A stretch of 64,000 nt of DNA, taken from contig JAVJVX010000006.1 in assembly GCA_040220875.1 (NCBI GenBank), positions 310,001-374,000 of the forward strand. Direction: 5' to 3'. The notes below the pieces were generated by a model, which ran no database searches, had not been told where the DNA came from, and worked only from the letters and a program-made list of their open reading frames with translations. Numbering within the stretch: the stretch's first letter is position 1; each line of letters opens with the position of its first letter. Of the stretch, positions 57,709-60,644 are shown in pieces. This stretch comes from Alphaproteobacteria bacterium. Lineage in GTDB: Bacteria; Pseudomonadota; Alphaproteobacteria; JAVJVX01. The translations under genes were made by a program, and so were the position numbers.

Positions 57709-57956
57709 ACTGGAACCGTGGACGCGCAGGGCAAGACGCTCTGGTAGGTTTCAGTGCGGAAGATCAGCCTTATAACATAATGCTTCCCGGTTTCATCTTC
57801 TCCGGCGCGCCGCGGTGCCGCTCCCGCCCCGAGCCCGTATCGCAGCCCGCGTCATAACCCTGACATCTGCCAGCGGATATGACAGTTCCGTGGCCCGGAA
57901 ACGGTCCAGAGGGGGAAAACGCGCGGCAAAAGCCGCAGGGGGCAGGGGGCAGGGGA

Positions 57957-60644
57957 ATGCGCGAGCATCATACCGGACCGCTCGAGAGCGCGCACGAGCG
58001 CCTCGCGACCACACCTGCCGGGCTCAGCACCGCCGAGGCGGCCCGCCGGCGCGGGCAGGCCGGCCCCAACCGGCTCGAGGCACGCCGGCGCGCGCCCGAA
58101 TTCATCAAGTTTCTCCGCCAGTTCAAGAATTTCTTCGCCCTGCTGCTGATCGTCGGCGGTGCGCTCGCGATGACGGCCGAGGAGCTCGATCCCGACCAGG
58201 GCAACCTCTATATCGCCATCGCCCTTCTCGCCGTCGTCGTGCTCAACGCCGCCTTCACCTATTTCCAGGAGCACCAGAGCGAAAAGATCATGGACAGCTT
58301 CCGCAACATGCTGCCCGCCATGATCACCGCCCGGCGCGACGGGCGGCCCCTCGAAATCCCGGCCGACGATCTCGTGCCCGGCGATGTCATCGTCCTGAAC
58401 GAGGGCGACCGCGTGCCGGCGGACGCCCGGTTGATCGAGGCCAGGGAGCTCAAGGTCGACAACTCGAGCCTGACCGGCGAGAGCGAACCGCAGCCCCGGG
58501 ATTCCGGCGCGTTTCACCAAAACCTGCTGGAAAGCCCCAACATGGTGTTTTCGGGCAGCCTGGTGCAAAGCGGCGAAGGGGTGGCGGTCGTGTGCGAAAC
58601 CGGCATGCGCACGGAGATCGGCCGCATCGTGACGCTGACCGAGGAGACCGCGGCGGTCGAAACGCCGATCCACAAGGAGCTCAAATACTTCATCAAGGTG
58701 ATCAGCATCATCGCCGTCTTCCTCGGCGTTTCCTTCTTCGCGATCTCGGTGCTGATCGGCAATGGCGTTCTCGGCAGCCTCATCTTCGCGATCGGCATCA
58801 TCGTCGCCAACGTGCCGGAAGGGTTGCTGCCGACGGTGACTCTCAGCCTCACCATGGCAAGCCGGCGCATGGCGCAGAAAAACGCGCTCATCAAGAATCT
58901 CGAAAGCGTCGAGACACTGGGCTCCACCACCGTCATCTGCACCGACAAGACCGGCACCCTGACCCAGAACCGGCTGGGGGTGAATACTGTCCTGATCGGC
59001 GGGCATGAATTCGCGGCCGACGATGGCCGGGTCGCCGGCGAGCCGGTTTTCGAAGAGTTGATGAAGGTGATGTGCGTCTGCAACAACGCCTATCTGAGCG
59101 ATGGCGGATTTGCCGGCGACGCGACCGAGGGGGCGCTGCTGATGTTCGCGCGCCGCCATGTCGATGTTGCCGCCCTGCGCCAGGTCACACAGATCGCCGA
59201 GCAGCCGTTCAACTCCAATACCAAACGCATGATCACCGTGACCGACACGGGCGCAGGCGAGGGCCCGCGCGCCTATCTCAAGGGCGCTCCCGAAGTGGTG
59301 CTCGATATGTGCGACCGGATCGCGCTGAACGGCGATATCCTCGCCCTCTCGGCCGAGCGCCGGGCGGAAGTCATCGATGCCTATCGCAAATTGGCCGGAC
59401 GCGGCGAGCGCGGCCTCGCCTTCGCGGCGAGGGCCGCCTCGCGCGACGGGGTGCCCGAAGGGGGCTACGTCTTCCTCGGCCTCACCGGAATGATCGATCC
59501 GCCACGGCCCGAGGTGCCGGAAGCGCTCGCGCGCTGCCGGTCCGCCGGTGTGCGGGTCATCATGTTGACCGGCGATTTTGGCCTGACCGCGAAAACCATC
59601 GCCCGCCAGATCGGAATGATCACAGGACATGGCCGGGTGGTGCAGGGCGACGAGCTGGCCGTCATGGGGGAGAACGATTTGCGCCGGCTTCTCGCCGACG
59701 AGCCTGAAATCCTGTTCGCGCGGATCGCGCCCGCGCAGAAGCTGCGCGTCGTCCAAGCGCTTCAGGCGAATGGCGACATCGTCACCGTGACGGGCGATGG
59801 CGTCAATGATGCCCCCGCCCTCAAGAATGCCGATATGGGGGTCGCGATGGGTGTCGGTGGGACCGAGGTGGCGAAAGAAGCCTCCAACATGGTGCTGATG
59901 GATGACAACTTCGCCACCATCGTCAGCGCGGTCGAGGAAGGGCGGACCATCTTCGACAACATCAAGAAGTTCGTCGCCTATATCCTCACCTCCAACGTGC
60001 CGGAAATTCTGCCCTTCATCGCCTATGTACTGCTCGATATCCCGTTGCCACTGACGGTGATCCTGATTCTGGCGATCGATCTTGGCACCGATATCGTCCC
60101 CGCGCTGGGTCTTGGCGCCGAACGGCCGGAGACCGATGTCATGCACCGCCGGCCCAGGCCCCGGGGCGAGCGCCTGTTGAGTCGCAACCTGCTGCTGATG
60201 AGCTACGGAATCGTGGGCGTGCTGCAGGCGGCAGCCGGATTCTTCACCTATTTCGTGATTCTCTATGATGGGGGCTGGTCGTGGGGCGAGACACTGGCCT
60301 ATGACGACCCGCTCTACCGCACAGCGATCACGGGCTTCTTCGCCTCCATCATCATCTGCCAGGTGGCCGACGTGATCATCTGCCGCACCCGGACGCAGAG
60401 CCTCTTCACCGTGGGTGTCTTCTCGAACCGGCTGGTGCTTCTCGGCATTGCGACGGAACTCGCCCTGCTGGCGGCGATCTCCTATATTCCGGCCTGCAAC
60501 ACCTTCTTCGGGACGGCGCCGCTCGCCGCCTGGCATCTTGCGCTCTCGATCCCCTTCGCCCTCCTCATCCTGCTGGGTGACGAATTGCGCCGTGTCTTCG
60601 TCCGGCGCGAGAATCGCTTCGTCCTCAAATGGCTGCGCTGGTAG
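57957..60644 (+). CDS. P-type cation ATPase, Na,K-ATPase-like (P2C-like)
   Basis: An 895-residue membrane pump. It has the TGES loop (173-176), phosphorylated Asp330 in CTDKTGTLTQN, the TGDGVNDAP hinge, and about ten membrane helices. YFQEHQSEKIMDSFRNMLP and the end of the protein (FALLILLGDELRRVFVRR) resemble animal Na,K-ATPase alpha subunits rather than common bacterial Ca2+ pumps. The ion-site residues match: VPEGLL (Glu288), SNVPE (Ser679, Asn680, Glu683), and AIDLGTD (Asp708, Asp712), at the same spacing as Na,K-ATPase Ser775, Asn776, Glu779, Asp804, Asp808. The substrate is likely Na+ and/or K+. Start ATG 57957 has a GGGGCAGGGGA ribosome site. Confidence 0.9.
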   Translation: MREHHTGPLESAHERLATTPAGLSTAEAARRRGQAGPNRLEARRRAPEFIKFLRQFKNFFALLLIVGGALAMTAEELDPDQGNLYIAIALLAVVVLNAAFTYFQEHQSEKIMDSFRNMLPAMITARRDGRPLEIPADDLVPGDVIVLNEGDRVPADARLIEARELKVDNSSLTGESEPQPRDSGAFHQNLLESPNMVFSGSLVQSGEGVAVVCETGMRTEIGRIVTLTEETAAVETPIHKELKYFIKVISIIAVFLGVSFFAISVLIGNGVLGSLIFAIGIIVANVPEGLLPTVTLSLTMASRRMAQKNALIKNLESVETLGSTTVICTDKTGTLTQNRLGVNTVLIGGHEFAADDGRVAGEPVFEELMKVMCVCNNAYLSDGGFAGDATEGALLMFARRHVDVAALRQVTQIAEQPFNSNTKRMITVTDTGAGEGPRAYLKGAPEVVLDMCDRIALNGDILALSAERRAEVIDAYRKLAGRGERGLAFAARAASRDGVPEGGYVFLGLTGMIDPPRPEVPEALARCRSAGVRVIMLTGDFGLTAKTIARQIGMITGHGRVVQGDELAVMGENDLRRLLADEPEILFARIAPAQKLRVVQALQANGDIVTVTGDGVNDAPALKNADMGVAMGVGGTEVAKEASNMVLMDDNFATIVSAVEEGRTIFDNIKKFVAYILTSNVPEILPFIAYVLLDIPLPLTVILILAIDLGTDIVPALGLGAERPETDVMHRRPRPRGERLLSRNLLLMSYGIVGVLQAAAGFFTYFVILYDGGWSWGETLAYDDPLYRTAITGFFASIIICQVADVIICRTRTQSLFTVGVFSNRLVLLGIATELALLAAISYIPACNTFFGTAPLAAWHLALSIPFALLILLGDELRRVFVRRENRFVLKWLRW

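Follow-up and report, generated by a model that had tools for sequence, protein, structure and literature searches.

A P2C-type ATPase of an alphaproteobacterium with Na,K-ATPase-like ion sites, probably a single-chain Na+/K+ pump

Does a bacterial ATPase whose ion-binding residues read like those of the animal sodium pump belong to the same group of pumps, which ions would it move, and could it do so as a single chain? These questions are raised by one gene of an alphaproteobacterium, lying in a window of 64,000 nucleotides (the whole stretch of DNA analysed here). Pumps of this kind are reportedly rare in Eubacteria, as Palmgren is said to have stated in 2023 in BBA (Evolution of the sodium pump). 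A preliminary description of the locus had held that P2C-like genes are known in some bacteria and are mostly uncharacterised. Among prokaryotic P2C ATPases the best known are those of methanogenic archaea, in which the Na+/K+ sites are likewise conserved. According to PMC10654040, which cites Palmgren 2023, methanogens carry genes for Na,K-ATPase-like proteins that keep every ion-site residue, none of them characterised, and the questions that PMC10654040, itself a 2023 review, names as unsolved include "P2C ATPases: what do they do in archaea?". No transport or ATPase measurements on prokaryotic P2C pumps were found in the literature. Since prokaryotic P2C genes with conserved sites have already been published, the pump of the window adds to a known, uncharacterised kind. 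Our reading, with a probability of roughly 0.7, is that it is a single-subunit P2C pump, resembling the alpha subunit without a beta subunit, which would use ATP to move Na+ out of the cell and K+ into it.

The gene translates without internal stop into an intact P-type ATPase of 895 residues. Its start was placed at the ATG at 57957 in preference to the longer, mechanically called frame from the ATG at 57879, because a Shine-Dalgarno-like stretch precedes the former and the starts of the relatives coincide with it in the alignment. Pfam finds the P2 ATPase domain set complete (A, P, N and M domains), and the DKTGT, TGES and GDGVND motifs of the P-type ATPase superfamily are all present. The host genome comprises 2.54 Mb in nine contigs and is 99.2% complete. 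The features of the gene itself are as follows.

57946..57955, + strand: putative Shine-Dalgarno-like, purine-rich stretch directly 5' of the ATG (from the sequence)
57957..60644, + strand: P2C-type ATPase gene, 895 amino acids plus stop (ORF translation, homology, profile, tree)
58473..58484, + strand: A-domain TGES motif, residues 173-176 (T173, G174 and E175 invariant in the alignment)
58944..58958, + strand: DKTGT phosphorylation motif with Asp330 (translation, alignment)

Regarding the family, membership of the protein in P2C is as good as certain. A phmmer search against the PDB placed the Na,K-ATPase alpha subunit at the top (712 bits, E 7e-213), followed by H,K-ATPase (671) and, among Ca2+ pumps, by LMCA1 (462 bits, the best P2A), SPCA1 (441) and SERCA1 (367). 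With the NCBIfam profiles, IIC scored best at 818 bits, by 242 bits over the next, ahead of IIA2 (575), IIA1 (527), IIB (441) and IID (402), and the IIC profile was matched by all 36 aligned relatives. The score of 817.8 bits lies below the curated cut-off of this profile (TIGR01106), which is 946 bits. Both other P2-type ATPases of the host genome prefer IIA2 over IIC, by 178 and 143 bits. The suggestion that the A-domain and C-terminal stretches resemble P2C pumps also held: in the alignment, YFQEHQSEKIMDSFRNMLP stands opposite YYQEAKSSKIMESFKNMVP of the animal pump, and LLILLGDELRRVFVRR opposite its FLIFVYDEIRKLILRR-type stretch.

A phylogeny had been proposed as the check on this placement, with grouping among P2A Ca2+ pumps as the outcome that would speak against it. 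In an LG+C20 mixture-model tree of 41 rows, the protein belongs to a P2C clade that also includes human Na,K-ATPase (support 100/100), and human Na,K-ATPase forms an 18-row group with the query clade (98/95). The topology joining the query clade to the P2A rows was rejected (p-AU 0.028), as was the one that keeps Na,K-ATPase apart from the P2C rows of prokaryotes (p-AU 0.033), both rejections being moderate and the animal row long-branched. The comparison with P2B used one partial row in a quick tree, and that with P2D used profiles. In addition, an AlphaFold model built with 36 relatives (mean pLDDT 83) was compared with known structures: Na,K- and H,K-ATPase structures rank first, the best Foldseek match is 8jbk, the Na,K-ATPase in E1.3Na+, and the structural comparison gave a VIA Z of 42. 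This likeness of a predicted model is what the sequence would lead one to predict. Structural alignments with animal Na,K-ATPase alpha (3wgu, 4hqj, 2zxe, 8d3u) give 40-44% identity, with the same fold and catalytic motifs and 14 of 15 positions of sites I-III shared.

Two other members of the P2 group were considered and rejected. For P2D (ENA type), loss of the M6 aspartate is the hallmark (PMC3355532); here both Asp708 and Asp712 are present in M6 and the profile scores are 402 bits for IID against 818 for IIC. Gastric H,K-ATPase is likewise a P2C pump and counter-transports K+, but it has Lys at the S775 position, where the window protein has Ser679, and the residues at D804 and E954 are Glu and Gln in H,K-ATPase against Asp and Glu in the window protein. 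As a side observation, one of the P2 paralogs of the host genome (L002:1474-4182, G000 contig C5) has Ala at the D808 position, its M6 aspartate being gone; despite this P2D hallmark it scores higher with IIA2 (644 bits) than with IID (514 bits).

The ion sites were aligned with human Na,K-ATPase alpha3, rabbit SERCA1 (its sequence checked against PDB 1iwo), LMCA1, SPCA1 and H,K-ATPase, and the relevant features are listed below, all on the + strand and all from the alignment.

58815..58826, + strand: M4 PEGL, in which E288 = Na,K-ATPase E327
59982..60005, + strand: M5 I676-L-T678-S679-N680-V-P-E683 = T772 (changed), T774, S775, N776, E779
60078..60092, + strand: M6 D708-L-G-T-D712 = D804, G806, T807, D808
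60225..60227, + strand: M7 Q757 = Q854
60360..60371, + strand: M8 Q802..D805 = Q923 and D926 of Na+ site III
60456..60458, + strand: M9 E834 = E954

All six residues first named for this protein correspond to human alpha3 as proposed (E288=E327, S679=S775, N680=N776, E683=E779, D708=D804, D712=D808). The signature had been called complete; 14 of 15 ion-site positions are indeed identical, and the word fails at one, where T772 is replaced by I676. The further matches are Y675=Y771, T678=T774, G710=G806, T711=T807, Q757=Q854, Q802=Q923, D805=D926 and E834=E954, so that the Na+-only site III, with equivalents of Q854, Q923, D926 and E954, is intact in the protein.

How far do these residues tell a Na,K-type pump from a Ca2+ pump? 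Many bacteria carry P2A pumps, the host genome itself has two P2 paralogs that prefer IIA2, and the likeness to Na,K-ATPase might be superficial in a P2A-type bacterial pump for Ca2+ (or Mn2+). Rabbit SERCA1 has five of the six first-listed residues (E327, S775, N776, E779, D808) and is separated by D804 alone, where it has Asn; the list is therefore weakly diagnostic on its own. On the aligned sequences it is the residues of site III, which that list had left out, that discriminate the Na,K type from Ca2+ pumps: the set Q854/Q923/D926/E954 is present in the window protein and missing from the Ca2+ pumps and from both paralogs of its own genome. LMCA1, SPCA1 and SERCA1 share the common P2 fold, the M4 Glu and the M6 Asp, but they lack D804 as well as this set and stand 250-345 bits lower by phmmer. 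With the M6 Asp at 804 against Asn in Ca2+ pumps, the lead of 242 bits for IIC, the 100/100 support in the tree and the p-AU of 0.028 for a P2A grouping, the residues, the profile, the LG+C20 tree and the AU test all set the P2A pump aside, and we regard it as very improbable.

A different question is whether K+ takes part. With few exceptions, the prokaryotic P2C proteins examined have Ile or Val at the T772 position. In the crystal structures it is the backbone oxygen of T772 that contributes to K+ site I (PMC5026471, Table 1), so an Ile there need not cost a ligand. The side-chain ligands of K+ sites I and II in crystal structures are S775, N776, E779 and D804 (PMC5026471), and all of them are kept in the window protein. 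Among 43 proteins of the close clade, every one in which the position is read keeps E327, S775, N776, D804, D808, Q854, Q923 and E954, while D926 is kept in 40 of 41. The position of E779 (residue 683 of the window protein), however, is Gln in 16 of the 43, which means that the charge of the pocket is not fixed across the close clade and that the handling of K+ may be altered in some members. Together with the Ile at T772, the replacement of the animal YY cap at the C-terminus and the changes of site III in distant branches (D926N, often with Q854E), this variation could fit a pump that moves Na+ without K+, either alone as a uniporter or in exchange for H+, or one whose stoichiometry differs, for example 2 Na+ : 1 K+. 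An ATPase activity of the Na+ uniport type has been reported for a cyanobacterium (PMC2928168), whose gene need not be of the P2C kind. Against such a pump, none of the side-chain ligands of K+ sites I and II or of Na+ site III has been lost in the window protein, and we consider it unlikely, the exchange of Na+ for K+ being the probable activity on the ligands conserved.

Farther from the window protein the pockets drift. Distant prokaryotic P2C branches have Asn in place of D926, and in L053-L056, L077-L083 and L085 this Asn926 is paired with a change of Q854 to Glu, as if the charge of site III had been shifted from M8 to M7; L065, L066 and L072-L076 have Asn926 with Gln854 retained. These natural variants of site III (Q854E, D926N) would allow stoichiometry to be probed by comparison among relatives.

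Further differences from the animal alpha subunit lie in the M7-M8 loop and at the C-terminus, where two features were annotated.

60264..60323, + strand: short M7-M8 outside loop without DSYGQ (45 vs 69 residues)
60603..60641, + strand: C-terminal tail RRENRFVLKWLRW, which replaces the animal YY end (alignment)

Between the equivalents of Q854 and Q923, animal pumps have 69 residues, whereas every prokaryotic P2C protein in the comparison has 45; the loop is thus 24 residues shorter, and the missing piece includes the beta-binding DSYGQ. The M1-M2 loop is also shorter. Profile PF00287 (beta) gave no match over the cut-off in the 99.2%-complete host genome or in 19 others, in a search that is uncalibrated because it included no control genome with a true beta subunit. 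The earlier proposal of a pump independent of beta, with no beta gene beside it, thus finds support in the missing M7-M8 extension and in this search, and the protein would work as a single chain; an unrelated partner chain is conceivable. Because the score stays below the curated cut-off and the beta-binding loop is lacking, we do not assign the protein to the animal alpha-beta enzyme family, though it appears alpha-subunit-like by anatomy.

Five further positions are changed relative to the animal pump, T797V, D121G, Q111D, E312G and F786Y, and we take Q111, D121, E312, F786 and T797 to be glycoside-contact positions in ouabain complexes. With these contacts changed ouabain resistance is expected, and a pump sensitive to ouabain would be unlikely. 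The C-terminal tail, ending in LRW instead of YY, stands where the animal pump has its YY end, close to site III; its pattern, approximately R-R-x-N-x-F-V-x-x-W-L-x-W, is shared by the greater part of the close clade and is not seen in distant branches. If the pump is indeed a single chain, it would show what purpose was served by adding a beta subunit, a YY end and a glycoside site. An animal-like beta subunit is reported from "Gammaproteobacteria bacterium 2W06" (PMC7911474); it resembles metazoan beta so closely that contamination is suspected.

A partner was also sought in the neighbourhood. Upstream, an ORF without Pfam match stops about 250 bases before the pump gene; downstream, a methyltransferase gene and DUF3126 lie on the opposite strand. 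No conserved partner gene was found, since each neighbouring gene family recurs in at most 7 of 36 related loci, the biggest such cluster being generic ABC ATPases, and an operon or partner subunit was rejected on this ground. Four of 35 related loci (L010, L017, L024, L041) have a Na+/phosphate cotransporter gene (PF02690) no farther than 5.3 kb from the pump, an uncalibrated count that would weakly fit a Na+ economy. In L041 a PPK2 gene also ends 98 bases before the pump, and two of the loci bearing PF02690 have a PHO4-family phosphate transporter as well.

Could the pump serve mainly to import K+ for turgor, as a substitute for Kdp? KdpA was absent from all 18 P2C-holder genomes, for which the chance is about 0.04 before correction for relatedness or number of tests; it is weak evidence, because the class baseline is only 63 of 385 genomes (16%). 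TrkH is present in 14 of the 18 holders, the host genome included, so that the pump is not the sole K+ route of its host. The four holders in which TrkH is missing are archaeal, and their lack of it is uninformative because the phylum background is only 6 of 148. Neither the KdpA nor the TrkH pattern shows a special K+ role; replacement of K+ uptake was rejected on these baselines, and a pump of this purpose has a slim chance.

Returning to a P2C pump that exchanges Na+ for K+, we infer the transported ions, a 3:2 stoichiometry, the direction and the physiological role as follows. The protein would be an inner-membrane pump running a Post-Albers cycle as in P2C pumps. Na+ from the cytoplasm would bind at sites I-III, Asp330 would be phosphorylated by ATP to give the phosphoenzyme, and Na+ would be released outside, up to three per cycle because site III is intact. 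Two K+ per cycle would then bind at sites I-II, and dephosphorylation would release them inside. Such a pump would probably serve its salt-water host by expelling Na+, taking up K+ and separating charge. The cycle might also run backwards and make ATP from Na+ and K+ gradients, which has been a speculation for P2C pumps of methanogens, the animal Na,K-ATPase being reversible according to literature cited in PMC10654040, where the speculation is made. Nothing in the present data points to such reversal, which we find barely credible. Moreover, named cultured holders such as Aliiroseovarius and Marivita are presumably respiring bacteria with an F-type ATP synthase, which counts against it.

Relatives 57-79% identical were found in Roseobacteraceae and Paracoccaceae (Primorskyibacter, Aliiroseovarius, Marivita, Seohaeicola, Boseongicola and others), in other Alphaproteobacteria, in Gammaproteobacteria including Colwellia, in a Polyangia MAG and in a Woesearchaeota MAG. 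Unlike the P2C pumps of methanogens, the clade of the window protein occurs sporadically in marine Alpha- and Gammaproteobacteria, one myxobacterial MAG and archaea of the Woesearchaeota phylum, and it may overlap the bacterial sequences of Palmgren 2023. A P2C-like match (E<=1e-180) was obtained in at least 7 of 385 genomes sampled from the class, three in the close clade including the own gene and four at 42-45% identity. The phylum sample gave at least 13 of 398 genomes, all matches except the own gene being 45-49% identical, and the Woesearchaeota phylum at least 6 of 148 with relatives at 54-63%. All these holder counts from the protein search are lower bounds, since few candidates per genome were scored.

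In the LG+C20 tree the archaeal rows branch outside the bacterial rows, which suggests that the gene may have passed from archaea to bacteria and then among bacteria. Binning errors may account for archaeal MAGs that hold the gene; the several separate archaeal lineages speak against this. The wider proposition, namely a true electrogenic 3Na+/2K+ pump without beta in respiring marine bacteria, in the prokaryotic group nearest to the animal pump and acquired by gene transfer from DPANN archaea, is tentative and rather doubtful as a whole. L060 and L062-L067 are small-genome DPANN archaea of the Woesearchaeota phylum with P2C pumps 45-63% identical to the window protein; those of L060 and L062-L065 sit immediately outside the bacterial clade in the tree.

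Named isolates of Aliiroseovarius, Marivita, Seohaeicola and Colwellia belong to the clade, in which deleting or expressing the gene should pose less difficulty than in methanogens, and these cultured marine holders make the published question on the function of prokaryotic P2C pumps testable. Plasmid-borne ATPases 40-42% identical to the window protein were also observed in Lactiplantibacillus (L084), Nostoc (L085) and Rhodococcus (L086); the last is without S775, N776 and D808, and the first two score best with the IIC profile.
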